Shown here: piece after piece, positions 4,751-30,392 of the stretch | How the letters are laid out: each line of letters begins with the position of its first letter | Numbering within the stretch: position 1 is the stretch's first letter | Origin: Oscillospiraceae bacterium | GTDB lineage: Bacteria > Bacillota > Clostridia > Oscillospirales > Ruminococcaceae | DNA length: 40,034 nucleotides | Direction: 5' to 3' | NCBI GenBank assembly: GCA_017460955.1 | Contig: JAFTZY010000078.1 | Span: forward strand, 1-40,034 | The notes under the pieces: generated by a model | Databases searched by the model: none | Seen by the model: only the letters and a program-made list of their open reading frames with translations | Told to the model about the DNA's origin: nothing | Program-made: the position numbers and the translations under genes

Positions 4751-5139
4751 GCGGATCCTCCCTTCAGATGCACGGGGATGCCGCAGTGCAGGCGCACCAC
4801 CTCATCGGCCGCAGCTGCAAGCAGACATCCGCAGCGTCCGGCCTGCTCCCGCCATGTCCTGTCGTCGGGATCGAGGGGGACGATGCCGCAGCCGATCTCG
4901 GTCTGCACGACAATGAGCCGGGGGGCGGTGCGGATGAGGGAGCGCGTGAATGCCTCCGGAGAGGCCCCCTCTATGAGTAGGCGCCGGACAAGGCTTTCGT
5001 ACCGGATGACGCAGCGGGCCCCCGCGACCTGTGCCGGCTCACAGTGCGCACCGTCGAGGATGTCCGCCGGGGCAAGGCCGAAGCGGCGGGAGACGTAATC
5101 CCGCTTGCCCTGTGCGGCACCGCCGGTGATGAAGATCAT
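4747..5139 (-). CDS. Short CobU-like protein with degenerate P-loop
   Basis: 130 residues, shorter than normal CobU (about 175-180). The N-terminus MIFITGGAAQGKRDYVSRRF matches the CobU P-loop region, but the final Ser/Thr of GxxxxGK(S/T) is Arg. The C-terminal half (EIGCGIVPLDPDDRTWREQ, then AGRC and AAAADEVVRLHCGIPVHLK) matches the last third of CobU/CobP. The middle segment that carries the guanylylated histidine is missing. A full-length cobU lies two genes upstream, so this may be a non-catalytic or specialised paralogue, or act in another cobinamide step. Start: ATG at 5139 within the GGAGGG-ATGGT-ATG context, overlapping the cobS stop. Confidence 0.75.
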   Translation of the reverse strand: MIFITGGAAQGKRDYVSRRFGLAPADILDGAHCEPAQVAGARCVIRYESLVRRLLIEGASPEAFTRSLIRTAPRLIVVQTEIGCGIVPLDPDDRTWREQAGRCGCLLAAAADEVVRLHCGIPVHLKGGSA

Positions 5140-5906
5140 ACCATCCCTCCTGTCAGCTTGTGTGCGAGCACCAGTGCCGTCAGGCACCATACCTCGCACA
5201 GGGAAAGAAACCATCCCGCCGTATCCCCCGTTACGCCGCCGAACTGCGAGAGCGCGGCCGCCCGGTAGCGGCACAGCACGAGCGCGGCAGTACACAGCGT
5301 AAGGCAGCCGCCCCGCGGATCGAGGAACAGCAGCAGGCCGGCAGCGGCAAGTCCCGTCACGGTGAGCACGCCAAGGGAGACGGCCCTGTCCGCGGGTGCC
5401 ACGAAGCTTTGCAGGGAGCCGTCCTTGCGTGCGCCGGGCAGGCAGATGGCGCTCATGGCGCTGAGCACACGCGAGAGCACGGGGATGCATGCCGCACACA
5501 GGGTCTGCCGGAGCGTTGTGAGCTCCGTATACAGCGCCGTCTGCCAGAGCAGGAGCGCACACAGGCCGATGACGGCAAAGGCGCCGACATGGGGATCCTT
5601 GAGGATGGCAAGGCGGCGTTCCCGGTCGCCGTAGGAATTGCGGGCATCCGTGACATCGCAGAAGCCGTCGAGGTGGATGCCGCCGGTGATGAGCACGCCA
5701 AGGAGCGTGCAGCCCGCGGCAAAGAGCACCTGCCCGATGAGGAGGCGGCTGCACACAAGACGCCACACAACGACGGATGCGCCGAGCACCGCGCCGACTG
5801 CCGGGAAGGAGCACAGCGCATACCGGCGGTTCTCCTCCTTCCAGGGGAGCTGCGGCACGGGTAGCCGCGAATACATCAGAAATGCTGTCAGAAGTGACCG
5901 GAGCAC
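5136..5906 (-). CDS. cobS: CobS, adenosylcobinamide-GDP ribazoletransferase
   Basis: 256 residues, polytopic membrane protein. It condenses adenosylcobinamide-GDP with alpha-ribazole (phosphate) to form adenosylcobalamin (phosphate). Family motifs are GGIHLDGFCDVTDA, the LKDPHVGAFAV block and QFGGVTGDTAGW near the C-terminus. There are at least five hydrophobic spans. Start: GTG at 5906 (VLRSLLTAFL) preceded by AAGGGGGAA fits the family length; it lies 19 bases inside cobU. An ATG further in (5876) would remove the first membrane-proximal residues. The upstream part of the open frame is cobU shadow. Confidence 0.92.
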   Translation of the reverse strand: MLRSLLTAFLMYSRLPVPQLPWKEENRRYALCSFPAVGAVLGASVVVWRLVCSRLLIGQVLFAAGCTLLGVLITGGIHLDGFCDVTDARNSYGDRERRLAILKDPHVGAFAVIGLCALLLWQTALYTELTTLRQTLCAACIPVLSRVLSAMSAICLPGARKDGSLQSFVAPADRAVSLGVLTVTGLAAAGLLLFLDPRGGCLTLCTAALVLCRYRAAALSQFGGVTGDTAGWFLSLCEVWCLTALVLAHKLTGGMV

Positions 5907-6421
5907 GGCGCTTCCCCCTTTCTTACGATGGGAATGCCAAAGACGCATTCCGTCACAAGGTCGGATACGGACGCAGCATAGGCATTGACAGCCCCGAGTG
6001 CGCACAGATACCGTCCCGTTTCCGGCGGATAGTCCCCAAGGTCATATCCGACGTCGTTCGAGACCATCACCAGATGGCGGCACTGCCTGCGCAGCGCATC
6101 GATCCCCCGGCGGATGCAGGGCAGGGGGTCATGCACCCCGTCCGCCCGGAACATCTCATTGGCGCACAGATTCCCAAGGTCCTCCAGCAGCACCGAGCAT
6201 CCCGGCGGGAGTGTGAGCCCTCCAAGATCCCGGGGACACTCGAGCGTGACAAAGCCCTTGCCGGCCCGGGCAAGGCGGTGCCTTGTGATGATGTGCTGCG
6301 CCTCCTCCCCGAACGGCTCCATGGTGGCAAGGTAGCAGCGCTGTCCGGGAACGCCCTCCAGAAGGGACTCGGCATAGCCGGATTTGCCGCATTTCGAGCC
6401 GCCGATGACAAGCGCCGTCAT
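5888..6421 (-). CDS. cobU: CobU, adenosylcobinamide kinase / phosphate guanylyltransferase
   Basis: 177 residues, full length for the family. It phosphorylates adenosylcobinamide and transfers GMP from GTP to make adenosylcobinamide-GDP, the CobS substrate. The P-loop GGSKCGKS is at residues 7-14, followed by CYLATMEPFGEEA. His48 in ITRHRLAR corresponds to the region of the guanylylated histidine in the Salmonella enzyme. The conserved C-terminal block with VSNDVGYDL in place of the usual SNEVG is also present. Start: ATG at 6421, overlapping the cobT stop as ATGA. Confidence 0.93.
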   Translation of the reverse strand: MTALVIGGSKCGKSGYAESLLEGVPGQRCYLATMEPFGEEAQHIITRHRLARAGKGFVTLECPRDLGGLTLPPGCSVLLEDLGNLCANEMFRADGVHDPLPCIRRGIDALRRQCRHLVMVSNDVGYDLGDYPPETGRYLCALGAVNAYAASVSDLVTECVFGIPIVRKGEAPCSGHF

Positions 6422-7461
6422 GAGAGCACCTCATAGGGCGCAAGACCGAGCGTCTCAAAGCTGTGCGCACTGCGGTACACGGCCAGCGCTCCCTCGAGCA
6501 GCGGCACGAGCAGCACGCCCCCCGTGCCCTCCCCAAGGCGCAGTCCGGCGCGGATGGGGGCATTGAGGCCGATGAGGGCGAGCAGTCCCTCCCCGGCGGG
6601 CTCCCCGGAGCAGTGGCTTGCCAGCATGTAGTCCCGGCTGACCGGTGCGATGGCAGCGGCAACGGCAGCGGCAGCGGCGCTGATGACGCCGTCGATGATA
6701 ACGGTGATGCCGTACACCGCACCGCCCAGGAAGAGCCCGGTCATCCCGGCGATCTCAAAGCCGCCGAGTGCCGAGAGCACCCCGATCGGGTCCGCCGGGT
6801 CCGGGGCATTCACGGCGATGCCCCGCTCGATGACGGCGCATTTGCGGGAGAGTCCCGCATCCGAGAGCCCCGCGCCCCGTCCCGTGACCTCGCGGGGGGG
6901 CCGGTGCAGCAGGACGCTTGCGATGGCGGAGGCACTTGTCGTGTTCCCGATGCCCATCTCTCCTGCGATGACAAGACGCAGCCCCTTGTTTGCCAGCTCC
7001 TGCGCAAGGTCCATCCCATGGCAGATGGCCTGCACGGCCTGCCCCCGAGTCATGGCAGGTCCCTGCGTGAAGCTGCGCGTTCCCGCACCGACACGCAGAT
7101 CGCGCACGCCGGGGCAGGGTGCCTTCATCCCAAGATCCGCCGCGATCACCTCGATGCCGAAGGGCGCGGCGATCGCATTGATATTCGAGGTGCCGCCGGC
7201 AATGGCACGGGCGCACATGGCCGTGACCTCACTGCCCGACTGGGAGACACCCTCCTCCACGATGCCGTGGTCCGCACAGAGCACGGCAGCACAGCACGGC
7301 GAGAGCGTCACCTCCGGGGTGCGCTGCACGGCGGCAAGGCGGCAGATCTGCTCCTCGAGGTGCCCGAGGCTCCCGAGCGGCTTTGCCACAGTGTTCCAGT
7401 GCTTTTGCGCGGCAGCGTAGGCGGCGCTGTCGGGGGGCGTGAGATGTTCAAGTCGTTCCAT
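6418..7461 (-). CDS. cobT: CobT, nicotinate-nucleotide:dimethylbenzimidazole phosphoribosyltransferase
   Basis: 347 residues. It activates the lower-ligand base to alpha-ribazole phosphate. Motifs are KPLGSLG (27-33), CADHGIVEEGVSQ (62-74), AGEMGIGNTTSASA (166-179) and the catalytic glutamate at residue 311 in LRLGEGTGG, equivalent to Glu317 of the Salmonella enzyme. Start: ATG at 7461, 5 bases after GGAGG; an in-frame ATG at 7473 has no ribosome site. It overlaps cbiA by 14 bases. No bluB or bza benzimidazole synthesis gene is in the window, so the lower ligand may be salvaged or made elsewhere. Confidence 0.95.
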   Translation of the reverse strand: MERLEHLTPPDSAAYAAAQKHWNTVAKPLGSLGHLEEQICRLAAVQRTPEVTLSPCCAAVLCADHGIVEEGVSQSGSEVTAMCARAIAGGTSNINAIAAPFGIEVIAADLGMKAPCPGVRDLRVGAGTRSFTQGPAMTRGQAVQAICHGMDLAQELANKGLRLVIAGEMGIGNTTSASAIASVLLHRPPREVTGRGAGLSDAGLSRKCAVIERGIAVNAPDPADPIGVLSALGGFEIAGMTGLFLGGAVYGITVIIDGVISAAAAAVAAAIAPVSRDYMLASHCSGEPAGEGLLALIGLNAPIRAGLRLGEGTGGVLLVPLLEGALAVYRSAHSFETLGLAPYEVLS

Positions 7462-8773
7462 GGCATCCTCCATAGGCAAGGCAGGCATCGGCAAAGCGCC
7501 GTGCAATGGCCGGATCCTGCCGGAAATACAGATGCGGGAAGCCCGCATAGAGCCGCTCTCCCGCATAGCCCGTGTACCACTGTCTGCCGTCGGACTTGCG
7601 GCACAGGAAGTCCTCCCCGCAGCCGGTGCTGTCCCAGTAGTGGAATTCATGCGCCTTCAGAGGGGCATTGCCCAGGAGCGAGGGGACATCCGTCTGCATC
7701 GTGACATACCCGAAGCGGCCAAGGCGGTCCCTGGGAAAGCCCTCCTCCGGGAACACGTCCGCCATGGCATAGCGCTCCCCCTCCCGCGTCACGAGCGTGC
7801 GGTGCAGGTAGAGAAAGCCACCGCATTCGGCAATGACGGGCATTCCGTCCAGGATGCGCGCCCGGATACCCGTTCGCATGGACACGTTCTCCGAGAGGGC
7901 CTTCGCATACAGCTCCGGATACCCGCCGCACAGGATGAGCCCGTCCGCTTTTGGCACTGCTGCATCGTGCAGGGGGGAGAAGAACACGAGATCGCATCCG
8001 AGCTCGCACAGGAGCGAGAGGTTCTCCTCATAGAGGAAGCAGAACGCCTCATCCCTTGCACAGGCGATCACGGAATGGCCGTCCACGGGCCCGATCCGGG
8101 GCGGGGTGTATGCGGGCAGGGGCGTATCGGGCAGGGAGAGGAGGGCATCAAGGTCGATGTGTGCCGCAGCAAGAGCGCCGAGGGTATCGAGTGCGGTCCG
8201 GAGCCCGGAGAGCTCATCGGCGGTAACAAGCCCTAAATGCCGGCTCGGGAAGGCGGGCGCACCGGGCGGCAGAAAGCCGAAGTATCCCGTGTGCAGTGCC
8301 TCACAGAGCGCACGCATCCGCGGCGCCAAGCGCTCGGGCAGGCGGTTGAAGAGAAAGCCCGCGATGCGGTTCGGGGTGCGGTAGGAGAGAAAGCCCTGCA
8401 TGACGGCCCCCACCGATTCCTGCATCCCCTTGCAGTCGATCACGAGGATGACGGGGGTGTTCGTGAGGAGCGAGAGCGCATGGGCCGAGGCCTCCCCGCC
8501 GTCATAGAAGCCCATCACGCCCTCGATGACGGACACCTCCCCGCCGTGCGTATCCAGCAGATGCAGCAGGGTATCCCGGCCGCAGAAGAAGCTGTCGAGG
8601 TTGCACGAGGGCATCCCCAGCACGCGCCGGTGGAACATCGGGTCGATGTAGTCAGGGCCGCATTTGAAGGCAGCGGGGGAACTGCCGCGCATTTGCAGCG
8701 CCCGCAGCACAGCGCAGGTCACCGTGGTCTTGCCGCAGCCGCTGGATGTTCCCGCCAGCAGCACGCGCCTCAT
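7448..8773 (-). CDS. cbiA: CbiA, cobyrinate a,c-diamide synthase
   Basis: 441 residues. It carries out glutamine- and ATP-dependent amidation of the a and c side chains of cobyrinate. The P-loop AGTSSGCGKTT is at residues 7-17, followed by FKCGPDYIDPMFH. The VIEGVMGFYDG block and the C-terminal amidotransferase nucleophile in IAECGGFLYLH are both visible. It differs from CbiP in the CGPDYIDP signature. Start: ATG at 8773 after GGGAGGG, sharing ATGA with the cbiET stop; the upstream in-frame extension is cbiET shadow. Confidence 0.95.
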   Translation of the reverse strand: MRRVLLAGTSSGCGKTTVTCAVLRALQMRGSSPAAFKCGPDYIDPMFHRRVLGMPSCNLDSFFCGRDTLLHLLDTHGGEVSVIEGVMGFYDGGEASAHALSLLTNTPVILVIDCKGMQESVGAVMQGFLSYRTPNRIAGFLFNRLPERLAPRMRALCEALHTGYFGFLPPGAPAFPSRHLGLVTADELSGLRTALDTLGALAAAHIDLDALLSLPDTPLPAYTPPRIGPVDGHSVIACARDEAFCFLYEENLSLLCELGCDLVFFSPLHDAAVPKADGLILCGGYPELYAKALSENVSMRTGIRARILDGMPVIAECGGFLYLHRTLVTREGERYAMADVFPEEGFPRDRLGRFGYVTMQTDVPSLLGNAPLKAHEFHYWDSTGCGEDFLCRKSDGRQWYTGYAGERLYAGFPHLYFRQDPAIARRFADACLAYGGCHGTT

Positions 8774-9951
8774 GTGGCCCTCCCCGTGACAAGGTACACG
8801 GGATTGAGCGCACGCATGAGGGTGTGCGTCCCCACACGGCTCCCGCGGGCCGCACACAGCTGTGTGACTCGTGCCTCCGGGAGGAGCGCCTGTGCCTGGG
8901 CGAGCGTTTCGAGCGAGATCGCAGAGACCGTCACGAGCGCATGGGGACTGCGCCTGCGGACCTCTCCCAGAATGTCCGGGAGCCGGCCTGCGCTGCCGCC
9001 GATAAAGACCTTGTCGGGGGCGGGGAGGTCCTCCGGGAGGCATGCCGGGGCCGTCCCCTCGTACACATGGAGGTTGTCCGCGCCAAACTGCCTTGCATTC
9101 TCCTGCGTCAGGCGCACGGCCTCGGGCTCCCTGTCAAAGGCATACACCGCCCCGAACGGGCAGTGCAGCGCCATTTCCACGCTCACGGAGCCCGTGCCGC
9201 AGCCGATGTCCCAGCACCGGTCCTCCGGCGTGATGCAAAGCCCTGCCACCGCGAGCGCCCGGATCTCCCGCTTTGTCATGGGGATGCGCGAGCGCACGAA
9301 GGCATCGTCCGGGATGCCGCAGGGCGTGTACGGACAAAAGTCCTCGTTTTCCGTGACAAGCACGGCAAGGGGCGCATCGGGGAGCGCACACAGCTCCTGC
9401 GCCGTGCCGGTGAGCACGGACTCCTCCGGCCCGCCAAGGCACTGTCCCACCCGGACCGTCACATCGGACAGCCCGAATGCGCAGAGTCTTTCGCAGACAG
9501 CCGCTGCGGTGTATCTGTGATCGAGCAGGAAGAAGCAGTACCGGTGGCTGCGGACATGCACCGCGATGCTGCCCTCCCGGCCGTGCAGGCTCACACAATG
9601 CATCCGCTCCCAGGGCAGCTCCATGCGGGCGCAGGCATATTGCAGGGAGGAGATGCCGCAGAGAAGCCGCACCGTATGCGCTCCCCGCAGCGCCGGCAGG
9701 AGCGTCTGTGCTGCGCTGTAAAAGCCCGTGTCCCCGGACAGGAGCACACAGGCATGTGTCCCGCCGCAGCGCCCGAGGAACGCAGCGGTCCCGGACGGGG
9801 TGTAGCTCTCAAAGAGCACCTTGCCGCTGTCCCTGTAGGGCAGGAGCATCCGGGGCGCACCGATGAGCACATCGGCCCGTGCGACGGCGGATGCCGCCTC
9901 CTGCGTCAGGGTCGCACCGGACATCCCGGTGCCGATGAGATCGACCTTCAT
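8770..9951 (-). CDS. cbiET: CbiET fusion, cobalt-precorrin-7 C5-methyltransferase / precorrin-6B C15-methyltransferase (decarboxylating)
   Basis: 393 residues, two domains. Residues 1 to about 205 are a tetrapyrrole methylase (CbiE), beginning MKVDLIGTGMSG with the LLSGDTGFYS block. From about 212 on is a class I SAM methyltransferase (CbiT) beginning GIPDDAFVRSRIPMTKREIR, with the SAM-binding DIGCGTGSVS at 248-257. Together they methylate C-5 and C-15 and decarboxylate the C-12 acetate, as in CobL of the aerobic pathway. Start: ATG at 9951, 6 bases after GGAGG, overlapping the cbiJ stop. Confidence 0.94.
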   Translation of the reverse strand: MKVDLIGTGMSGATLTQEAASAVARADVLIGAPRMLLPYRDSGKVLFESYTPSGTAAFLGRCGGTHACVLLSGDTGFYSAAQTLLPALRGAHTVRLLCGISSLQYACARMELPWERMHCVSLHGREGSIAVHVRSHRYCFFLLDHRYTAAAVCERLCAFGLSDVTVRVGQCLGGPEESVLTGTAQELCALPDAPLAVLVTENEDFCPYTPCGIPDDAFVRSRIPMTKREIRALAVAGLCITPEDRCWDIGCGTGSVSVEMALHCPFGAVYAFDREPEAVRLTQENARQFGADNLHVYEGTAPACLPEDLPAPDKVFIGGSAGRLPDILGEVRRRSPHALVTVSAISLETLAQAQALLPEARVTQLCAARGSRVGTHTLMRALNPVYLVTGRAT

Positions 9952-10691
9952 GGGGTACCTCCTTCCTCTTTGAGCAGCGCAAGGATCCGGGAAAACGTCA
10001 GTCCCGTATCCGGGGGACGCAAAAGCGTGAGCATGGAAATGCCGCAGCGTCTGGCAGCCTCGCATTTCTCCGGAAAGCCCCCCGCCCTGCCGCTCTCCTT
10101 GCTCACGAGGACCGCCGCACCGCTCTGCCGGATGTGGGCGATGTTCTCCTCCACGGAGAAGGGCCCCTGCGCAAGGAGCAGGTGGGACGGCGGGATCCCG
10201 AGGGCAAGGGCCGCCTCCCGCGCCGAGGGCAGGGCCCGGATCCACAGCCGCTCCCGGTGATCCGGGAGCACGGTGAGTGCGGGGAGGGCCTTGCTGCCAA
10301 GGGTGGACAGGATATTGCCCTCCCATCCGCGCAGCCGCGCAAGGAGCACCTCCATATCCTGCACGCTCTCCCCGTAGGGGATGTCCGAGCGCTCCCTGCA
10401 AAGCCGCTCACAGCGTATCCCCAAGGCGTTGGCGGCAGTGCGGATGTTCCCGCTTGCCTCCCGCGCAAACGGGTGCGTGGCATCGATCACAAGGGCGGGG
10501 GAGAGCGTTTGCATGAGTGCAGCCATCCCCGCCGCATCGAGCGCCCCCGTGCATACGCGCACCCCCTGCGGCAGGAGCTGTGCGCCAAGGGGGGTGGTCA
10601 CGCTCACGCAGACGCTGATCCCGGCGTTTGCGCAGTATTCGGCAAGCGCACGCCCCTCCGTGGTGCCGCCGAAGAGCAGGAGCCTACACAT
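9948..10691 (-). CDS. cbiJ: CbiJ, cobalt-precorrin-6A reductase
   Basis: 247 residues. NAD(P)H-dependent reduction of the corrin macrocycle to cobalt-precorrin-6B. The N-terminal glycine motif LLLFGGTTEGRALAE (4-18), the IDATHPFAREASGNI block (about 93-107) and the C-terminal VSKESGRAGGFPEK block are characteristic of CobK/CbiJ. Start: ATG at 10691 is about 6 bases from GGGGGT; ATG at 10697 touches it. The start overlaps the cbiH stop (10684) by 8 bases. Confidence 0.92.
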   Translation of the reverse strand: MCRLLLFGGTTEGRALAEYCANAGISVCVSVTTPLGAQLLPQGVRVCTGALDAAGMAALMQTLSPALVIDATHPFAREASGNIRTAANALGIRCERLCRERSDIPYGESVQDMEVLLARLRGWEGNILSTLGSKALPALTVLPDHRERLWIRALPSAREAALALGIPPSHLLLAQGPFSVEENIAHIRQSGAAVLVSKESGRAGGFPEKCEAARRCGISMLTLLRPPDTGLTFSRILALLKEEGGTP

Positions 10692-11415
10692 CCGCATACC
10701 CCCGCGGTGTGACCATGCGTCCGGAGTGGATGCAGGTCTCGTGATTGCCGATGTAGACGGTGGTGAACATGTCCACCCGCGTCTGTGAAAGCTCGGACAG
10801 CGTGAGAAGGCGGCTCTCCTGTCCCTCCCGTCCGATGTTGCGCACGATGCCGCAGACCGTGTCCGGACTGCGGTGGGCAAGGAGGATCTCACATGCGTGC
10901 CTGAGGTGATCCGGGCGCTGCCGGGAGGAGGGGTTGTAGAGAACGATCACCAGATCCGCCATCGCCGCATACATCAGGCGCTTTTCGATGCGCTCCATGG
11001 GTGTGAGGAGATCCGAGAGACTGATGACGGCAAAGTCATGCGTCAGGGGCGCCCCGAGCACGGCCCCGCCGGAGAGCGCGGCCGTCACGCCCGGTACGAT
11101 GCGCACCTCCACCTCCGGGAACCGCTCTGCAAGCTGGAGGGTGAGCCCCGCCATGCCGTACACGGCGGCATCCCCGCTGCATACGAGCGCGGCGGTGTGT
11201 CCGGCATCGGCGAAGGACAGCGCAGCCAGGACGCGCTCGCGCTCCCCGCGCATGCCGGTGTGCTCGGCACGCTTGTCCGGGAACACCGCCGACAAAAGCC
11301 GGATATACGTTGTGTAGCCGAAAAGACGCTCGCTCTCCTCGAGAGCCGCTCTTGCCTCAAGGGTCATCCCCCCGGCGCTTCCGCAGCCAAATCCCACTAC
11401 ATACAGCCGTTTCAT
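10684..11415 (-). CDS. cbiH: CbiH, cobalt-precorrin-3 C17-methyltransferase
   Basis: 243 residues, tetrapyrrole (SAM-dependent) methylase fold. It methylates C-17 and drives ring contraction in the anaerobic route. The motifs MKRLYVVGFGCGSAGGMTLEA, YTTYIRL, CSGDAAVYGMAGL, PGVTAALSGGAVLGAPLTHDF and VLYNPSSRQRP are diagnostic of CobJ/CbiH. Start: ATG at 11415 with GGAGG five bases upstream, overlapping the cbiG stop. There is no C-terminal extension or fusion to CbiG, unlike in some Clostridia. Confidence 0.94.
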   Translation of the reverse strand: MKRLYVVGFGCGSAGGMTLEARAALEESERLFGYTTYIRLLSAVFPDKRAEHTGMRGERERVLAALSFADAGHTAALVCSGDAAVYGMAGLTLQLAERFPEVEVRIVPGVTAALSGGAVLGAPLTHDFAVISLSDLLTPMERIEKRLMYAAMADLVIVLYNPSSRQRPDHLRHACEILLAHRSPDTVCGIVRNIGREGQESRLLTLSELSQTRVDMFTTVYIGNHETCIHSGRMVTPRGYADV

Positions 11416-12446
11416 GGCATCCTCCTGTCAAAGTCGATCGTAAGGTGGCACTGCGCTGCCGCTACGGTCACGCCCTGTGCCGCCTCCTTCGGGTATAAAA
11501 GCACGCCCTCGCTGCAAAGCACGGCGCTGCGCTCACAGACATTGTCCGCACCCACGGTCCGCTCCACAAATGGGGAGGCGGAAAATTCCCCCGGCACGGC
11601 CATGAGCGCTTTCGCGGAATAGGTATGCAGCGCCAGCGCATGCGCCCTGCAAAAGGCAAGGAGCCCGGGCTCCTGCGCCTTCACATCGATGGAGGCCGCT
11701 GCCCGCACGCGCTCCGGGGCGAGCGCATGACGGGTGAGGAAGTCCTGCACCCGCGCTTCGATGACCGCCTGCGGTATCCCCCTGCGGCAGCCGATCCCGA
11801 GCACGATGTCCTGCATGGTGAGGGTGAGGGTCACGGGAAAGGGCGCCTCCTGCGGATCGTCCGTGATGCAGATCCCCACGCGGCAGCTCGTATCTCCTTC
11901 ACGGAGCCCCGCCGGGATGTGCTGCACGGGACAGCGGCTGACAAGGCCCACCGGTTCCCCGTCAAGGAGTGCTGACGCGACCGCCTTGCAGGCGTGCATC
12001 GAGCCGATGTGCAGATGATTGGCCGCGGCAAAGCAGTCGGGGGAGAGGAGCCCGCGGGTGTCGGTGGCGGTGGTGAGGCAGGCCTGTGCGCCCAGGGCAT
12101 CGGCAAGGCGCAGGCTCAGGGCATTGGCCCCGCCGAGGTGACCGGACAGCACGGGGATGACAAAGCGCCCCGCCTCATCGAGGACGAGCACCGCAGGGTC
12201 CGTGCGCTTGTCCTGTAAAAACGGCGCACACATGCGCACGGCAATGCCGCAGGCGCACACGAACACGAGCGCGTCGTATTCCCGGAAGAGCCCCCCCACA
12301 AGTGCATGCAGGGACGTAAACGTCTGTGCCTGCACATCCGTATGGGGGGCATAGCAAAAGCGGTCGGATGCCTCTCCCAGGACATTTGCAATGCGCTGTG
12401 AAAGCCTGCGCCCCCCTTCCGTCAGGGAGATGACCGCCGCTTTCAT
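11412..12446 (-). CDS. cbiG: CbiG, cobalt-precorrin-5A hydrolase
   Basis: 344 residues. It opens the delta-lactone of cobalt-precorrin-5A and releases the two-carbon fragment as acetaldehyde. The N-terminal CbiG domain shows the FVCACGIAVRMCAPFLQDKRTDPAVLV pattern (written here in two parts: FVCACGIAVRM and LQDKRTDPAVLVLDE), then VIPVLSGHLGGAN. The C-terminal domain begins VLGIGCRRGIP (about 236-246) and holds AAASIDVKAQEPGL. Start: ATG at 12446 after GGGAGGGG; it overlaps the cbiF stop as ATGA. It is a single gene, not fused to cbiH. Confidence 0.94.
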   Translation of the reverse strand: MKAAVISLTEGGRRLSQRIANVLGEASDRFCYAPHTDVQAQTFTSLHALVGGLFREYDALVFVCACGIAVRMCAPFLQDKRTDPAVLVLDEAGRFVIPVLSGHLGGANALSLRLADALGAQACLTTATDTRGLLSPDCFAAANHLHIGSMHACKAVASALLDGEPVGLVSRCPVQHIPAGLREGDTSCRVGICITDDPQEAPFPVTLTLTMQDIVLGIGCRRGIPQAVIEARVQDFLTRHALAPERVRAAASIDVKAQEPGLLAFCRAHALALHTYSAKALMAVPGEFSASPFVERTVGADNVCERSAVLCSEGVLLYPKEAAQGVTVAAAQCHLTIDFDRRMP

Positions 12447-13195
12447 ATCCCCTCCCGGTAGAGGGTCGTAAAGTGCGCATCATAGAGCTTTGAGAGCTCA
12501 TAGGAGGACCCGAGGAAATGTCCCACCGCGATGAGGGCGGTGCGGGTGATGCCGTTTTCCTGTGCCGTCTGCGGGAGGGTATCGACCGTGCAGCGCAGGA
12601 CCTTCTCGTCCGGCCAGCTGGCCTTGTAGACGATCGCGCAGGGCGTGTCCGGGGCATAGCCGCCCGCAAGGAGCTGCGTGCGCAGTCCCTGCGTGAGCGA
12701 GGCACTCAGGAAGATCACCATGGTCGCACCGTGGGCGGCAAGGGCGGCGATGCGCTCACGCTCCGGGACCGCCGTGCGGCCCTCCATCCGTGTGAGGATG
12801 ACGGTCTGGGACACGCCGGGGAGCGTGTATTCCGCACGCAGGGCCGCTGCCGCGCCGCAAAAGGCGCTCACGCCTGGACAGATCTCGTAGGGGATCCCCC
12901 GCGCATCGAGCGCATCCATCTGCTCGCGGATCGCCCCGTACAGGCAGGGGTCCCCCGTATGCAGGCGCACGGTCATGCGCTTTTGCGCCTCTGTGCGCTC
13001 CATGACGGCGATGACCTCCTGAAGCGTCATGCATGCGCTGTTGTGGATCTCACAGCCCTCCGGGGCAAGCTCCAGGAGCGCCGGATTGACCAGGGAGCCT
13101 GCGTAGATGATGCAGTCAGCGCGGGAAACAAGGCGCTGCCCGCGCACGGTGATGAGGTCCGGTGCGCCGCAGCCGGCGCCGACGAAATATACCAT
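12443..13195 (-). CDS. cbiF: CbiF, cobalt-precorrin-4 C11-methyltransferase
   Basis: 250 residues, tetrapyrrole methylase. SAM-dependent methylation at C-11. Family motifs are MVYFVGAGCGAPDLITVRG at the N-terminus, IYAGSLVNPALL, RLHTGDPCLYGAIREQ, ICPGVSAFCGAAAAL and VYKASWPDEKVLR. Start: ATG at 13195, 6 bases after GGAGG, which itself lies in the last codons of cbiD; the two genes are separated by one base after the cbiD stop. Confidence 0.95.
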   Translation of the reverse strand: MVYFVGAGCGAPDLITVRGQRLVSRADCIIYAGSLVNPALLELAPEGCEIHNSACMTLQEVIAVMERTEAQKRMTVRLHTGDPCLYGAIREQMDALDARGIPYEICPGVSAFCGAAAALRAEYTLPGVSQTVILTRMEGRTAVPERERIAALAAHGATMVIFLSASLTQGLRTQLLAGGYAPDTPCAIVYKASWPDEKVLRCTVDTLPQTAQENGITRTALIAVGHFLGSSYELSKLYDAHFTTLYREGI

Positions 13196-13196
13196 A

Positions 13197-14318
13197 TCAT
13201 GCCTCCGTCATGGCCCGCAGCAGTGCATCTGCACGGGCAGTTCTGAGAAGAGTGTCCCCGGTAAAGCCGATGGCCGCGACGGGGACGGCATCGCGCACGC
13301 GCCGTGTGAGCGCCTGGCCGATGCGTGCAGAGAGCACCTCGAGTACGGCGGGGAGATGCCCGTCCTGCGCGAGCACGGCAAGGGCGGCATCCACGGTCAC
13401 GCAGTCCGGGAGCGCCTGCAGCACGGGCAGCGGCACCCCGGCGATGACGCCGCAGGTGATGAGCACCTCCATGCGCCCGTCCGCATAGGACGAGTGGGTG
13501 TTCATGATCCCCGCACCGAGCTTGACGAGCTTGCCCAGATGCCCGATGAGGAGGATCCCCGAAAAGCCGAGGGATACCCCGATGTCAAGCGCCTCCCCGA
13601 TAAAATTGCTGCACTTGACCGCACGCTCTGGCGGCACGGGCAGGGACAGGCGCAGAAATTGCTCGCTGTAATTGCCGATCGTCAGGAGCAGGGAGGCTTC
13701 CCCCATGGCCCTGTGCATCCGGGCTTCGGTGCGGATGGTGTCGATGACGGCCCGGGAGCTCATGGGCTCGACGATGCCGCTTGTGCCGATGACGGACAGC
13801 CCCCCCTCGATGCCAAGGACCGGATTGTACGTTTTGCGGGCAAGCGCCTCCCCCCCGGGGATGCTGAGAATGACGGAAAAGCCCCCCGCATAGCCGCAGG
13901 CAGAAGCGACGGCCGCAAGTGCCTCCCCGATCATGCGCCTTGGCACGGAATTGATGGCCGATGCCCCCACGGGCTGGTCGAGCCCGGGCTTGGTCACCCT
14001 GCCGATGCCCTCACCGCCCGTGATCGTGATCCCGCTCTCACAGCGGGTGACCTCGGCCCGCACGAGCACGCCGTTTGTGATGTCCGGGTCATCCCCGCTG
14101 TCCTTGCGCACCGCACAGACCGCGCAGCCGTCCCGGAGCATCCCCTCCTCCACGGGGAGGGTCAGGGCGATGCCGGAGGGGGTGGTCAGTGCCGTCTGCA
14201 AGGGACGCTCCCCCGTGAGCAGGAGCCTTGCCGCCGCAGCAGCAGCAGCGGCAGCACAGGTGCCGGTCGTAAAGCCGCAGCGCAGCCCCTCCGGCGTGCG
14301 CAGCTGAGCATCGTTCAT
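13197..14318 (-). CDS. cbiD: CbiD, cobalt-precorrin-5B C1-methyltransferase
   Basis: 373 residues. Methylates C-1 of the corrin ring with SAM and marks the anaerobic pathway. The N-terminal signature GLRCGFTTGTCAAAA (11-25) is followed by an unusually long alanine run of nine. Further family blocks are KDSGDDPDITNG, GEGIGRVTKPGL and IGHLGKLVKLGAGIMNTHS. Start: ATG at 14318 with GGGAGG about 7 bases upstream. This is the first gene of the 16-gene cobalamin operon, with the promoter only about 35 bases away. Confidence 0.95.
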   Translation of the reverse strand: MNDAQLRTPEGLRCGFTTGTCAAAAAAAAARLLLTGERPLQTALTTPSGIALTLPVEEGMLRDGCAVCAVRKDSGDDPDITNGVLVRAEVTRCESGITITGGEGIGRVTKPGLDQPVGASAINSVPRRMIGEALAAVASACGYAGGFSVILSIPGGEALARKTYNPVLGIEGGLSVIGTSGIVEPMSSRAVIDTIRTEARMHRAMGEASLLLTIGNYSEQFLRLSLPVPPERAVKCSNFIGEALDIGVSLGFSGILLIGHLGKLVKLGAGIMNTHSSYADGRMEVLITCGVIAGVPLPVLQALPDCVTVDAALAVLAQDGHLPAVLEVLSARIGQALTRRVRDAVPVAAIGFTGDTLLRTARADALLRAMTEA

Positions 14319-21236: not shown

Positions 21237-21265
21237 TTGACTTTTGTGTATCGAAATGTTATAAT
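21237..21265 (+). promoter_or_regulatory. Promoter of the GGDEF-EAL gene
   Basis: TTGACT (21237-21242), 17 bases, TATAAT (21260-21265), a near-consensus sigma-A promoter. The leader to the ATG at 21339 is about 65 bases. Confidence 0.88.
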
Positions 21266-21279
21266 ATCTGTGTATCGAA
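21245..21279 (+). repeat. Direct repeat flanking the -10 element (candidate operator)
   Basis: TGTGTATCGAA occurs at 21245-21255 and again at 21269-21279, a 24-base period, with one copy in the promoter spacer and one just past the -10 box. Two identical 11-mers placed this way suggest a repressor site, but no cognate regulator is visible nearby. Confidence 0.4.
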
Positions 21280-21338
21280 GCGTGCTCCGGCAGGCGGACA
21301 TGCGGAGAGAAGCGGACTTTCAGGAAGGAGGTGCCGGC

Positions 21339-23318
21339 ATGAAGGAGCGGATCGCGCACTGGCTGGGACTCGAGCAGAAGTCCCCCTATGTCAGGAATTA
21401 TTTCTATGCCACCAATATGCGTGCGAGCATCTATATGGCACTGGTCGTCGTCGTATTGGAGGTGTGGATGATCGTGCGCACCACGGTCACCTATTTCAAG
21501 CCGACCAACACCTATCCATTGCAGTATTATCTGCGCAATTATTACCTGTACTACTTCATCCTCCTTGCCGCCGGCACGCTCATGCTGGTCTTTGCCGTGC
21601 GCTTTCTGCGGGGGAAGAAGGACCATCCGGCACTCGGCCGGTCGATCCAGTGGGTTTTTTCCTTCATCTGCCTGTATTTCGGCATCATGGTCTCCGTCAA
21701 TGACTATGCCAAGGGGGAGCAGATCCTCACCTTCCTGACCATGGAGCTGTTCGTCATCTGCCTGCTGACCTGGCGGCCCATTGTCGCCTTCCTCATCCTG
21801 ACGGTCTCCTACGGGATCTACGTCTGGCGCATCAGCGGCATCGTTCCGGTCAATGTCCGGCTTCGGGCGATCGAGGGCGGTACGGAAGCGGCGGCGGGCC
21901 TGACTGTTGCCACGAAGATCAATTTGTTCACCATGTGGCTGTCCACGCTGATGTTCAGCATCAGCAACTACAACAAGACGCTCTCCCAGGCCCGCAAGGA
22001 CGAGGACCTCGAGGGCATGAATGCGCGTCTGAGCGAGATCTCCGTCAAGGATGAGCTCACGGGCATCCACAACATGTTCCACTTCCGCAGTGAGGCCGAA
22101 AAGCTTCTTGGCTACGTCACCACGGACAAGGGGAATATCGCGTTTTTGTTCTTTGACATCGAGAATTTCAAGTCCTACAACGAAAAGTACGGCTTCCACG
22201 AGGGCAATGACCTGCTCATGCGCGTCGCACAGATGATGGAGCGGGAGTTCGAGGGGTCGCTCGTATCCCGGTACTCCGATGACCATTTCGTGGTGCTCAC
22301 GCGCTATGCAGCCTGTGAGGAGCATGTGCGGCATCTCTCCCACGCCGTCAAGACCCTGCAGCGGGAGGTCCATCTCGAGCTCAAATGCGGTGCCTACCGG
22401 CCGGCCGACGGGGAATCCGATCCGAGTCTCGCGCTCGACCGCGCCCGCTTTGCCTGCAACTGCATCAAGAAGCATTACGACTGCGCCTTCCGGCTCTACG
22501 ACAAGGCGCTCGAGGACGATTTCCACCGCAAGCAGTACATCGTCAACAACATCGACAATGCCATTGAAAACGGCTATATCAAGGTATTCTACCAGCCCGT
22601 CGTCTCCACACAGGACGGCTGCATCTGCGGCCTTGAGGCACTTGCACGCTGGCTCGATCCCGCCTACGGGCTCCTGCCGCCCGGTGCCTTCATCGGTATC
22701 CTCGAGGAGTACCGGCAGATCCACAAGCTCGACCAGTGCATCATCCGGCAGGTGTGCCGGGATTATCGCCGTGCGGCCGACCAGGGGCTGCCCTTTGCGC
22801 CGGTGTCTCTCAATTTCTCCCGGCTCGATTTCGAGCTGTGCGACATCGTGGACTACGTCCAGACACAGGCACAGGCCTACGGCGTGCCACGGGATTTCCT
22901 GGACATCGAGATCACCGAGAGCGCACTGACCGAGCAGCATGACTATCTCCAGAACGCCGTCAGAAAGCTGCGCGATTCCGGCTATAGGGTATGGCTCGAC
23001 GATTTCGGCAGCGGCTATTCCTCGCTCAATGTCCTCAAGGATTATCAGTTCGATGTCCTCAAGATCGACATGAAATTCCTCTCGGATTTCGGCAGCAACG
23101 AAAAGGCGCAGCCGATCCTGGAGAACATCGTCTCCCTGACTCGGCAGCTGAACATGGTCTCACTGACCGAGGGCGTGGAGACGCAGGAGCAGTTCGCATT
23201 CCTGCGTGATATCGGCTGTGAGCGGGCACAGGGCTATCTGTTCAGCAAGCCCGTCCCGATCGAGCAGCTCCGGGAGCGCATCCGCACCGGGGAGCTGCAC
23301 ATGGCCAAGGCCTCTTAA
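21339..23318 (+). CDS. Membrane GGDEF-EAL protein; probable cyclic di-GMP phosphodiesterase with degenerate GGDEF
   Basis: 659 residues. Residues 30-215 carry five or six membrane segments, an uncharacterised membrane sensor. The GGDEF domain (about 235-390) has SDDHF at 313-317 in place of GGDEF, so it should be unable to make cyclic di-GMP. The EAL domain (about 400-650) is complete: EAL at 433-435 in GLEALARW, Asn492 in LNFSRLDF, Glu524 in EITESA, DDFGSGYSSL (554-563), KIDMKF and EGVET (611-615). It should hydrolyse cyclic di-GMP. Start: ATG at 21339 after AGGAAGGAGG. The HD-GYP-like gene follows 32 bases later, probably co-transcribed. Confidence 0.93.
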   Translation: MKERIAHWLGLEQKSPYVRNYFYATNMRASIYMALVVVVLEVWMIVRTTVTYFKPTNTYPLQYYLRNYYLYYFILLAAGTLMLVFAVRFLRGKKDHPALGRSIQWVFSFICLYFGIMVSVNDYAKGEQILTFLTMELFVICLLTWRPIVAFLILTVSYGIYVWRISGIVPVNVRLRAIEGGTEAAAGLTVATKINLFTMWLSTLMFSISNYNKTLSQARKDEDLEGMNARLSEISVKDELTGIHNMFHFRSEAEKLLGYVTTDKGNIAFLFFDIENFKSYNEKYGFHEGNDLLMRVAQMMEREFEGSLVSRYSDDHFVVLTRYAACEEHVRHLSHAVKTLQREVHLELKCGAYRPADGESDPSLALDRARFACNCIKKHYDCAFRLYDKALEDDFHRKQYIVNNIDNAIENGYIKVFYQPVVSTQDGCICGLEALARWLDPAYGLLPPGAFIGILEEYRQIHKLDQCIIRQVCRDYRRAADQGLPFAPVSLNFSRLDFELCDIVDYVQTQAQAYGVPRDFLDIEITESALTEQHDYLQNAVRKLRDSGYRVWLDDFGSGYSSLNVLKDYQFDVLKIDMKFLSDFGSNEKAQPILENIVSLTRQLNMVSLTEGVETQEQFAFLRDIGCERAQGYLFSKPVPIEQLRERIRTGELHMAKAS

Positions 23319-23350: not shown

Positions 23351-24259
23351 ATGCACTACCTGATGTATGTGCTCATCGCGCTCGGCGCAGCGATGATGGT
23401 CACAAATATATACCGGTACATCTATTTTCTCCATGAGATGCGGGATGTGCTCTCCGCCGGCAGGCGCCGGGACAGGATCTGGAAGTATGTGGCGCTCGTG
23501 CTGCTCTTCTTCTTCCTGATCGGCTATGTTGCCATCACCTTCACGCAGGAGCCCAGTATGATCCTGGCGCTCATCCTGTTCGGCGGCAGCCTGTTCGTAT
23601 GCATCGTGCTCACGCTCATGCGCAATCTGCTGAATACCGCCAAGGAGCGAAGCATCGATGTGGCCGAGGTCCTCATCGGCGTGATCGACGCCCGGGACCC
23701 GAACCTCAACGGCCACAGCCGTCACGTCCAGCATCTGACGATGGCCCTCTACCGGCATCTGCCCGTTTCCATGCGCCGCGACATCAGCGCCGTGAGCCTG
23801 GAATATGCCGCCCTCATGCATGATGTGGGCAAGCTCGGTGTTCCCGAGCACATCCTCAACAAGCCCGCCCGCCTGACGAAGGAGGAGTGGGAGATCATGC
23901 AGCAGCATCCGAAGATCGGTGTGGAGATCCTCAAGCCCCTCGGGTCGTTCTCCCACATCGAGCCGTGGATCCTCTATCATCACGAGCGTGTGGACGGGAA
24001 GGGCTATTACAAGCTCAAGGGGACGGACATCCCGCTGGCCGCCCGGATCATCGCCGTGGCGGATACCTACTCGGCCATCACCATGCGGCGTTCCTACAAG
24101 GCGCCGCGCACCCATGAGGAGGCCATCGCCGTGATGCGGGAGGTGGCCGGCTCCCAGCTGGATGCCGTGCTGGTGGATTTTTTCTGCACCATCCCCGAGG
24201 CGGAGCTTGCCGCCTGTGCGCCGGAAATGATCGAGCTTGGAAATATGCATAGGACCTGA
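23351..24259 (+). CDS. Membrane HD-GYP-like phosphohydrolase
   Basis: 302 residues. Three membrane segments (about 3-20, 45-64, 70-90) precede an HD domain from about 100. HSRHVQHLT (122-130), MHDVGKLGVPEHILNKP (156-172; HD at 157-158) and HHERVDGKGYYKLKG (210-224) fit the HD-GYP family, which degrades cyclic di-GMP. The signature GYP itself reads GYY, a variant seen in uncertain members, so the substrate is not secure. Start: ATG at 23351 after AGGAGGG. It is the second gene after the EAL protein and is followed by a terminator. Confidence 0.88.
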   Translation: MHYLMYVLIALGAAMMVTNIYRYIYFLHEMRDVLSAGRRRDRIWKYVALVLLFFFLIGYVAITFTQEPSMILALILFGGSLFVCIVLTLMRNLLNTAKERSIDVAEVLIGVIDARDPNLNGHSRHVQHLTMALYRHLPVSMRRDISAVSLEYAALMHDVGKLGVPEHILNKPARLTKEEWEIMQQHPKIGVEILKPLGSFSHIEPWILYHHERVDGKGYYKLKGTDIPLAARIIAVADTYSAITMRRSYKAPRTHEEAIAVMREVAGSQLDAVLVDFFCTIPEAELAACAPEMIELGNMHRT

Positions 24260-24829: not shown

Positions 24830-25083
24830 TGAACCGGTGCCAGCTCATGCAGCGCATCCAGCGCTATGATTTTGCGCTCTATGACCTCCAGCTCTACCTG
24901 GATACGCATACGCAGTGCCGGGAGGCCATGGCGCTGTTCGAGCGCTACCGCCAGGCACGCGCGGGGGCAATGGAGGAGTATGTCAGACGCTTCGGGCCCG
25001 TCAAGGCACTCCAGACGGATACCGGCGCCGAGCAGTGGACCTGGGGACAGGGCCCGTATCCGTGGGAAAGGGAGGCGAACTGA
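24826..25083 (+). CDS. cotJB: CotJB, spore coat protein
   Basis: 85 residues. QLMQRIQRYDFALYDLQLYLDTH (in parts: QRIQRYDFALYDLQLYLDTH), then ALFERYRQAR and a C-terminal WTWGQGPYPWE match the CotJB family, whose members end in a W-x-W-x-x-x-P-W-PWE-like pattern. The two consecutive ATG codons at 24826 and 24829 follow GGGAGGTGAG; either may be used. Second gene of the cotJ operon. Confidence 0.9.
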   Translation: MMNRCQLMQRIQRYDFALYDLQLYLDTHTQCREAMALFERYRQARAGAMEEYVRRFGPVKALQTDTGAEQWTWGQGPYPWEREAN

Positions 25084-25085
25084 GT

Positions 25086-25706
25086 ATGTGGACGTATGAG
25101 AAAAAGCTGCAATACCCCGTGAAGATCAAAAACCCGAACCCCCAGATGGCACAGGTCATCATGAGCCAGCTTGGCGGGCCGGACGGGGAGCTCGGGGCGT
25201 CGCTGCGGTACCTGAACCAGCGCTATGCCATGCCGAACGACGAGGCCAAGGGCCTGCTCACCGACATCGGCACCGAGGAGCTCGCGCATATGGAGATGGT
25301 CTCGGCCATCATCTACCAGCTCACGAGGAATCTGTCCGAGGCGGATATCAAGAAGTACGGCTTTGACAAGTACTTCGTCGATCACACGGGCGGCATCTAC
25401 CCGGTGTCGGCTGCCGGCGTGCCGTTCACAGCGGCCTACTTCCAGTCGAAGGGCGATGCCTTCGCGGACCTGACCGAGGATATGGCCGCCGAGCAGAAGG
25501 CAAGGGCCACCTATGACAACATCCTGCGCCTGGCGGACGATCCGGATGTCATCGATCCCATCCGCTACCTGCGCCAGCGCGAGGTCGTGCATTTCCAGCG
25601 CTTCGGCGAAGCCATGCGCATCGTGCAGGACAGCCTCGATGCCCGCAATTTCTACGCCTGCAATCCGTCCTTTGATAAAAAGTGCGGCAAGCGGCGGGGA
25701 AGATGA
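25086..25706 (+). CDS. cotJC: CotJC, spore coat manganese-catalase-like protein
   Basis: 206 residues of the ferritin-like manganese catalase family. Metal-ligand type motifs are GTEELAHMEMV (about 60-70), the DLTEDMAAEQKARATYD block (given to 17 residues) and REVVHFQRFGEAM near the C-terminus. N-terminal MWTYEKKLQYPVKIKNPNP is typical of CotJC. It may break down peroxide at the spore surface. Start: ATG at 25086, about 11 bases after GGAGG and 2 bases past the cotJB stop; the longer open frame from 24915 is cotJB shadow. Confidence 0.93.
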   Translation: MWTYEKKLQYPVKIKNPNPQMAQVIMSQLGGPDGELGASLRYLNQRYAMPNDEAKGLLTDIGTEELAHMEMVSAIIYQLTRNLSEADIKKYGFDKYFVDHTGGIYPVSAAGVPFTAAYFQSKGDAFADLTEDMAAEQKARATYDNILRLADDPDVIDPIRYLRQREVVHFQRFGEAMRIVQDSLDARNFYACNPSFDKKCGKRRGR

Positions 25707-27494: not shown

Positions 27495-27764
27495 ATGATG
27501 TTCAAGGTCACTGTGAAGGGCGGGACGCTGTCCCAAAGAGAGATCGACGAGTATATTTTCTACACCAAAAAGAAGTACGGGACCGTGCTGCCGGAGCATC
27601 TGGAGATCATCCTGGAGGTGGACGGGGACTATGTGAACATCACATACGATCCGCCCATGCGCTTTGGCGCCTTTCGTGCCACGGACTATCTGGTCAATGA
27701 CACGGGAAAGCTCAATGCGTCAAAGTACGCCGAGCAGCAGGATAAGATCCCGAATACGGTATGA
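27495..27764 (+). CDS. Small conserved-looking cytoplasmic protein, function unknown
   Basis: 89 residues, no signal peptide or membrane segment. It has its own promoter, a GAGGAG ribosome site, two adjacent ATG codons (27495, 27498) and its own terminator, so it is surely a gene. The core reads IDEYIFYTKKKYG, LEIILEVDGDYVNITYDPP, then FRATDYLVND, KLNASKYAEQQDKI. The Y-L-V ... N-A-K-x-AE pattern recalls short proteins annotated as anaerobic ribonucleotide reductase-associated in Clostridia, but this is a loose resemblance from memory and I do not assign a function. Confidence 0.8.
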   Translation: MMFKVTVKGGTLSQREIDEYIFYTKKKYGTVLPEHLEIILEVDGDYVNITYDPPMRFGAFRATDYLVNDTGKLNASKYAEQQDKIPNTV

Positions 27765-27784: not shown

Positions 27785-27820
27785 GGACGGAGGGGAGACC
27801 TTCCGTCCTTATTTTATTTT
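27785..27820 (+). terminator. Intrinsic terminator after the 89-residue protein
   Basis: GGACGGA (27785-27791) pairs with TCCGTCC (27802-27808), followed by TTATTTTATTTT (27809-27820). The T tract covers the stop codon of the convergent spo0A gene. Confidence 0.85.
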
Positions 27821-28620
27821 GCGGAAAGCATCCGGCTCAGGCCGCCGCTCTGAACAAGACCGCCGCTCTTGCGCTGGAGGCGCAGCTTGTCCGTGATGAG
27901 GGCAATGAATTCCGAATTGGTGGGCTTGCCCTTGCAGGTGTTGACCGTGTAGCCGAAGAAATCATTGAGCATATCCAGATCCCCGCGGTCCCATGCGATC
28001 TCAATGGCGTGGCGGATGGCACGCTCGACACGGGAGGGCGTGGTGTTGAACTGGCTGGCGACCGCCGGATACAAAAGCTTCGTGACGCTCTCAAGAAGCT
28101 CTGCATTGTCGATGGAGGCCAGGATCGCCGCCCGCAGATAGTGATAGCCCTTGATGTGGGCGGGAACGCCGAGCTGATGGATCACATCGGTCACGATGAG
28201 CTCGAGATCACCGCCGCGCTCGCTCCGGGGTACTGTACCGGCCGTCAGGCTCGTGATCCGGTCGGCAAGCGCGGACAGATCAAAGGGACGCAGCATGAAA
28301 TAGGCAGCGCCCTGCTCCATGATCTGGCGCTCCACAAAGGGGTTGTCATATCCGGAGGTCACGATGAAGGCCGGGAATTTCAGGGAGCGCTCCCGGACCG
28401 CCGCCTTGGTGCGCTTGATGAGCTCAATGGCGTCCATGTGCGGCATGACTGCCTCGATGAGCACCACGTCCGGCTGCTCCTCAAGGATCGTATTGTATAA
28501 AAGGTTCCCGTCCTTGCGCCGGGTAAAGGCATACATCCCGCAGTTGCGCAGCGCACTGGCCGTTGTGATGCCGTAATCCACAGTGTCGTCTCCGATGAGC
28601 ACTTTGGTTTTGTTGTTCAT
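27814..28620 (-). CDS. spo0A: Spo0A, master regulator of sporulation, with altered receiver active site
   Basis: 268 residues. The C-terminal DNA-binding domain (about 150-260) is typical: [66 protein letters not shown]. The N-terminal receiver keeps the acidic pair Asp11-Asp12 and Thr88, but the phospho-acceptor position, Asp56 in Bacillus, is Glu56 in [13 protein letters not shown]. The conserved Lys of the LKPFD motif is Arg111 (MLRPFD). Both codons (GAG, CGT) were checked in the sequence. It may therefore be unable to accept phosphate in the normal way or be in a permanently active-like state. Start: ATG at 28620 ([10 protein letters not shown]) after CAGGAG; a longer in-frame ATG at 28653 lacks a ribosome site and spans it. 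Confidence 0.94.
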
Positions 28621-28733: not shown

Positions 28734-28740
28734 TGTCGAA
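28734..28740 (+). promoter_or_regulatory. Candidate Spo0A box upstream of spo0A
   Basis: TGTCGAA, an exact match to the core 0A box, lies about 52 bases 5' of the spo0A -35 element. A 7-mer is weak evidence alone; its position makes autoregulation plausible. The remaining 28741-28960 holds a small hairpin (28799-28814, CTCCGG/CCGGAG) but no gene that I can support. Confidence 0.35.

Positions 28741-29156: not shown

Positions 29157-30392
<1,236 letters not shown>

Follow-up and report, generated by a model that had tools for sequence, protein, structure and literature searches.

Can a sporulation master regulator be used without the aspartate through which it is switched on? This question is raised by a spo0A gene on a contig of an Oscillospiraceae bacterium (assembly GCA_017460955.1, contig JAFTZY010000078.1), whose whole stretch of 40,034 nucleotides was analyzed and is here called the window. 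In bacilli and clostridia, sporulation is described as being launched by one key switch, the phosphorylation of Spo0A (PMC3533761), and all spore formers are said to have Spo0A activation in common (PMC11115286). A first-pass annotation of the window reported a Spo0A with Glu at the phospho-acceptor site and proposed that the regulator is uncoupled from the phosphorelay or sensor kinases.

The window encodes a Spo0A orthologue without the acceptor aspartate

The spo0A gene covers 27814..28620 on the minus strand, as annotated, and encodes 268 amino acids; on that strand of the window, AAAGGAGG directly precedes its ATG. The protein matched the Spo0A equivalog model TIGR02875 over its full length (246.4 bits, cut-off 200), and it contains a Response_reg domain (PF00072, 36.2 bits, cut-off 30.2) and a Spo0A_C domain (PF08769, 148.5 bits). 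The DNA-binding domain could be aligned to 1lq1 over 115 residues without a gap, which agrees with the claim that it is conserved. The source genome, a draft of 84 contigs that is 90.8% complete, gave this single PF08769 match, so the second Spo0A that the first-pass annotation had named as evidence against its reading was not found at this level of completeness. The equivalog match, the intact recognition region and the locus known from relatives show that the protein is the Spo0A orthologue of this genome.

In alignments to the solved receivers 5wq0, 1dz3 and 9phz, residue Glu56 (codon GAG, 28453..28455, minus strand) was matched to the Asp of LDIIMPHLDG with no adjacent gap, and Arg111 (28288..28290, minus strand) to the Lys of LKPF. 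Both replacements had been called by eye and are borne out by these alignments, in which the acceptor position of the window Spo0A is not filled by any alternative Asp. The acidic pair Asp11 and Asp12 is present, also as claimed, but the switch residue had been misplaced: Thr88 matches a hydrophobic residue, and the switch Ser/Thr position is the following codon, Ser89 (28354..28356, minus strand). With Glu56 the protein lacks the acceptor Asp of phosphorylation-activated response regulators, and as a receiver fold with the phospho-Asp replaced it belongs with the aspartate-less receivers (ALRs).

Asp56 has been lost repeatedly within the family

Site 56 was mapped in one Spo0A per genome for 150 of 174 own-family genomes (38 from the source genus and a family draw of 138, with two common to both), and the 24 others offered just a fragment, a gene with an in-frame stop or no near-full match among those listed. 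The results showed Asp in 110 proteins, Glu in 30, Asn in five, Ser in three, and His and Ala in one each. A class draw of 148 genomes gave 104 outside-family genomes above the cut-off, from which 14 same-genus near-duplicates and four partial or interrupted genes were removed; four rows below the TIGR02875 cut-off, two of them non-Asp56, were added, giving 90 mapped genomes from 45 other families. Here, Asp was found in 83, Glu and Asn in two each, and Gly, Ser and Ala in one each. Non-Asp56 proteins thus make up 40/150 in the family and 7/90 elsewhere in the class (Fisher p 3e-4, kinship ignored). With one row per group, they were seen in 28 of 107 own-family genera as compared to 1 of 45 other families. 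When the rows below the TIGR02875 cut-off were left out, four in each set, the counts were 36/146 (the removed rows having A, N, N and N, and no Glu) and 5/86.

Eighty named Spo0A loci, from relatives labelled Ruminococcus, Oscillospiraceae or less exactly, included six with Glu56: RUG14155 (L039), SRR14411301_bin.8 (L040), UBA3855 (L041), E13__bin35 (L059), RGIG3652 (L061) and SUG144 (L109). One had Ser56 (Ruminococcus flavefaciens XPD3002, L099) and one was unreadable; since these loci are partly on the same contigs as those of the genome set (G handles), the two sets were not summed. Within the source genus, Glu56 was present in six genomes (G000, which is the source genome, G002, G015, G025, G028 and G030).

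Loss of Asp56 is a recurrent trait of this family and not a singleton. The first-pass annotation had suggested that the site be mapped in relatives; there Glu56 does recur, and the picture of a one-off is replaced by that of a family trait. Arg111, presented as a further oddity, is real but not specific, as eight of the 31 own-genus Spo0As carry Arg, six of them together with Asp56.

These data also bear on the trivial explanation that codon 56 is a sequencing or assembly error. The source genome is a draft with at least one duplicated contig among its 84, which leaves some room for such an error, but Glu56 is found in other species, encoded by both GAG and GAA, and the Glu56 genes of the genus occupy the same locus as its Asp56 genes. 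An error at this codon is therefore hardly credible.

Glu56 arose repeatedly, with purifying selection on the receiver in a sister pair

In a careful tree of 31 own-genus rows and 14 near relatives, made with column 56 excluded, Glu56 required six changes, at least four of which were forced by well-supported branches. Glu56 has thus arisen independently at least four times around the genus. A single clade of the six own-genus Glu56 proteins was rejected (p-AU 4e-6). A FastTree tree of 156 rows implied at least 27 changes between Asp and non-Asp, a number that tree error could inflate, and held 18 independent Asp/non-Asp pairs on supported branches. Losses of Asp56 were inferred to number 24.4, about 19.3 of them leading to Glu. 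In the survey of aspartate-less receivers in PMC4395418, Glu is the commonest replacement of the phospho-Asp, at 26%, and the share seen here exceeds this value (binomial p 8e-8, events treated as independent). Part of the bias can be ascribed to a general preference for an acidic pocket, since Asp11, where replaced, was also mostly exchanged for Glu (25 of 36 rows, one gap aside).

Between the Glu56 sister species L003 and L008 the receiver had a dN of 0.022 and a dS of 0.36, giving a ratio of 0.06 for this one pair. In 23 pairs of Glu56 lineages and their nearest Asp56 relatives, the Glu56 receiver had evolved faster in 14 and slower in nine, which is not a significant acceleration (p 0.09). 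Within the genus, mean receiver identity was 0.72 for pairs with a Glu56 member vs. 0.77, a trend that runs against our main reading. The window receiver does not look like decay, and the first-pass annotation was right to describe the gene as intact.

The receiver pocket has drifted throughout the family

The full pocket set (acidic residues at 11 and 12, D56, S/T89 and K111) was retained in 58 of 149 own-family proteins, one gapped row being set aside, vs. 69 of 90 elsewhere in the class. Site 56 ranked second in receiver conservation outside the family and 24th inside it. Receivers of different own-family genera shared a mean identity of 0.34 and their DNA-binding domains one of 0.70, as compared to 0.40 and 0.62 between families elsewhere in the class. 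Relative to the other Clostridia sampled, this family holds the output domain tighter and the phosphorylation chemistry looser. Losses at the other pocket sites were compared with non-Asp56 in the 18 independent pairs on supported branches, and no coupling was detected (median p at least 0.375 for each site): 4.8 pairs changed the same way and 1.4 the other way for D11, 2.5 and 2.2 for D12, 0.7 and 2.0 for S/T89, 3.9 and 3.7 for K111, and 4.5 and 1.3 for P60.

Residues of the receiver fold behaved differently from the variable catalytic ones, as P112, G38, P50, D63 and G104 were near-invariant in own-family receivers (conserved at 0.90 or more). Such a pattern, with purifying selection on the receiver and with the aspartate-less receivers with other inputs described in PMC4395418, would also suit a pseudo-receiver that binds another signal or partner and does not read phosphate, with Glu56 being only structural. 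Against it, the own-genus loci, searched with six queries, showed no conserved neighbours of spo0A apart from argG, an ABC-F gene and a small ORF. We consider a ligand- or protein-regulated pseudo-receiver rather unlikely.

The loop after site 56 shows variation of its own. In 21 of the 80 named loci, this loop lacks its MP and has Gln at position 60 (typically D-I-T-A-Q-N-G-D), with Asp56 mostly kept; these loci are from Ruminococcus flavefaciens and relatives (L077-L079, L082-L084, L086, L087, L090, L091, L094, L096-L098, L101, L103-L105, L107, L110 and L111). The same-genus genome G033 has an ordinary Spo0A (L030) and a second full-length Spo0A-like protein (L134, G033:C31:18700-20700; 208 bits) with Asp56 and a different loop. 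In several genomes of the genus, additional matches to the C-terminal part only of the Spo0A model were found, at G009:C20, G013:C27, G001:C72, G005:C31, G002:C30 and G037:C13, in ORFs of 130-230 aa with a Spo0A-type DNA-binding domain and no evident receiver.

The spo0A locus and a predicted 0A box

The divergent neighbour of spo0A in the window is argG (29157..30392, plus strand; argininosuccinate synthase by Pfam), which marks a conserved locus by adjoining spo0A in 28 of 31 own-genus loci. SpoIVB was encoded near spo0A in 27 of 30 other-family loci, in 25 of 31 own-family loci (30 plus L134) and in 28 of the 80 named loci, but in none of the 31 own-genus loci, and the spoIVB of the source genome is on a different contig from spo0A. 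This indicates that spo0A has moved off spoIVB in the genus. Outside the genus, the Glu56 loci L059, L061, L148 and L165 are in the spoIVB-spo0A pair, and L109 (Glu56) and L099 (Ser56) are outside it.

The small ORF facing the end of spo0A (27495-27764, plus strand, 89 aa) has no Pfam match and has homologues in 23 of 31 own-genus loci. Elsewhere in the window we noted anaerobic-type (cbi) cobalamin genes on the minus strand (2212-13207; CobD/CbiB, CobU, cobyric/cobyrinate amidotransferase, CbiG and precorrin methylases) and, on the plus strand, a GGDEF-EAL protein (21237-23318) followed by an HD-domain protein (23351-24259), and an Mn-catalase (24915-25706).

In the gap between spo0A and argG, the 0A-box heptamer TTCGACA lies at 28734..28740 on the minus strand, at positions -120 to -114 relative to the spo0A start codon. 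Among the 30 own-genus loci with enough upstream sequence, 19 had the exact heptamer in the 250 bases preceding spo0A, as compared to a mean of 1.35 and a maximum of 4 in shuffled sequence, and the upstream sites shared one orientation in 21 of 23. Among the own-genus Glu56 loci, the box was found in four of the five that could be tested; it is missing in L027, and the upstream sequence of L008 is too short. Upstream of spo0A, the box was seen in 25 of 30 other-family loci, nine of 30 loci from other own-family genera and 13 of 66 named loci. A 9-base 0A-box pattern, allowing one mismatch, gave 15 matches over the whole window vs. 6.07 expected, none of them at spo0A. The intergenic region is common to spo0A and the divergent argG, and the box could therefore also serve argG.

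Kinases of the source genome

The proposed uncoupling from phosphorelay and kinases stands in part. No Spo0B was found above cut-off in the source genome (a sub-threshold match lies inside a 451-aa kinase-like ORF), which is in favour, but at least one unpaired HisKA kinase is present. The genome holds 20 HATPase_c matches vs. 21 receivers. From a reading of the coordinates, 14 of the 20 HATPase_c ORFs have a receiver gene on the same strand within about 2.5 kb, and two are GyrB and MutL. The unpaired HisKA kinase is C75:12985, with the nearest receiver 3.6 kb off; C24:46618 (with an in-frame TAG) and C71:277 are close to contig ends, and C49:128011 is a 300-aa HATPase_c_2 protein. Given the unpaired kinase and the matches at contig ends, direct-acting orphan kinases may be present.

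Going by receiver chemistry, a histidine kinase would be unable to activate a Glu56 Spo0A by normal phosphotransfer to Asp56. Phosphorylation could nevertheless still switch the protein if it took place on Glu56 itself or elsewhere, for instance on an Asp or Ser close by. The retained Asp11, Asp12 and Ser89 and the kinases with no neighbouring regulator are compatible with this, and Glu is in principle phosphorylatable (PMC4395418). However, the same passage of PMC4395418 knows of no example of Glu phosphorylation in bacterial signalling, and our alignments show neither a gap nor a shifted Asp at site 56. Continued switching by phosphorylation is thus very improbable.

SpoIVA and GPR accompany Glu56 in the genus

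SpoIVA, SpoIVB and the spore protease GPR were all above cut-off in the source genome. A 784-aa SpoIIE-like ORF reached 101.8 bits with the SpoIIE phosphatase domain PF07228 and 141 bits with TIGR02865, below the TIGR02865 cut-off of 490.8. The SpoIVA of the source genome appears twice, as G000:C62 and G000:C8:36500-41500 (L360 and L359) are 100% identical over 5001 bases; C62 is therefore probably assembly redundancy and not a second SpoIVA locus. Of the 38 own-genus genomes, 34 contained SpoIVA and 34 contained GPR; both were present in all six with Glu56. Among the own-family genomes tested, SpoIVA was present in 29 of 35 with non-Asp56 vs. 82 of 86 with Asp56 (absent in six and four, respectively; p 0.033), and a full receiver set was seen in none of 10 SpoIVA-less vs. 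39 of 111 SpoIVA-bearing genomes (p 0.029, the gapped row counted as not full).

The slight association of non-Asp56 with missing SpoIVA counts against our main reading, and it would be expected if sporulation is being lost, with Spo0A retained to control other stationary-phase genes, with a relaxed requirement for its phosphorylation, and with Glu56 as one step in a slow drift that neither activates nor is regulated. The lack of full receiver sets in SpoIVA-less genomes, the family-wide drift of the pocket, the low-scoring SpoIIE-like protein and the missing spore genes listed for Ruminococcus albus 7 in PMC3533761 point the same way. Against drift of this kind stand the low dN/dS between the Glu56 sisters, receivers that are not significantly faster, replacements that are strongly biased to Glu, and SpoIVA and GPR in every own-genus Glu56 genome and SpoIVB in the source genome. 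Sporulation loss is in our opinion unlikely, but it is an explanation to be taken seriously.

A possible mode of control

The reading we prefer, with a probability slightly below one half (about 0.48), is that this Spo0A is an aspartate-less receiver that cannot be switched at Asp56 and is set by its amount and by dimerisation, while Glu preserves the acidity of the pocket. Glu56 would hold the receiver near a dimer-competent state, and Spo0A activity would be determined mainly by how much of it is made. Feedback through the predicted 0A box upstream of spo0A could tune this amount, and partners at the receiver surface perhaps contribute. Simple mimicry of phospho-Asp by Glu is disfavoured, as an Asp-to-Glu exchange alone is insufficient for constitutive activity in Spo0A according to PMC4395418, citing Green 1991. 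Possibly, receivers of this family had already shifted to activity without phosphate, and loss of Asp56 would then be tolerated. The pocket drift in Asp56 members fits such a prior shift, without proving it. The unpaired HisKA kinase and the lack of a 0A box in L027 and in many relatives count against control by amount and dimerisation.

For this bacterium and for those relatives that lack Asp56 and have spore genes, the textbook scheme of sporulation control probably does not hold. A wider and more doubtful proposition is that sporulation entry in the whole family has been freed from Spo0A phosphorylation: a receiver dimerising without phosphate would have lost its Asp repeatedly, mostly to Glu, and autoregulated abundance would set commitment, possibly even in Asp56 species.

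Comparison with known systems

Asp-less receivers as such have been described before. What seems to be new here is natural, recurrent Asp-less Spo0A orthologues in genomes with spore genes; prior mention elsewhere is possible, and no natural Spo0A without the acceptor Asp was found in the titles and opening abstract lines of openly licensed PMC papers, among the matches listed. Where spore genes are present, such orthologues are either exceptions to the phosphorylation rule or signs that sporulation is being lost, and both outcomes matter for gut commensals and for understanding the rewiring of master regulators.

The window protein shares with the phosphorylation-activated Spo0A of TIGR02875 the two-domain build, with a score above the equivalog cut-off, a near-identical DNA-binding core and a gene preceded by a predicted 0A box, but differs by the missing phospho-Asp, by Arg in place of the pocket Lys and by a gene that is not beside spoIVB. 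Clostridial Spo0As are activated directly by orphan kinases, and Ruminococcaceae are named among the families without a phosphorelay (PMC11210211), to which the absence of Spo0B above cut-off corresponds; in those proteins the conserved Asp is needed for phosphorylation and dimerisation, whereas the window Spo0A has none. As in the ALRs RitR and ChxR (PMC4395418), the phospho-Asp is replaced and the first acidic residue kept. Unlike the ALRs described there, the window Spo0A retains the complete acidic pair together with Ser89 and is still basic at position 111, and its output domain is Spo0A_C; in the family, Glu accounts for 30 of the 40 non-Asp residues vs. 26% in the ALR survey of the same paper.
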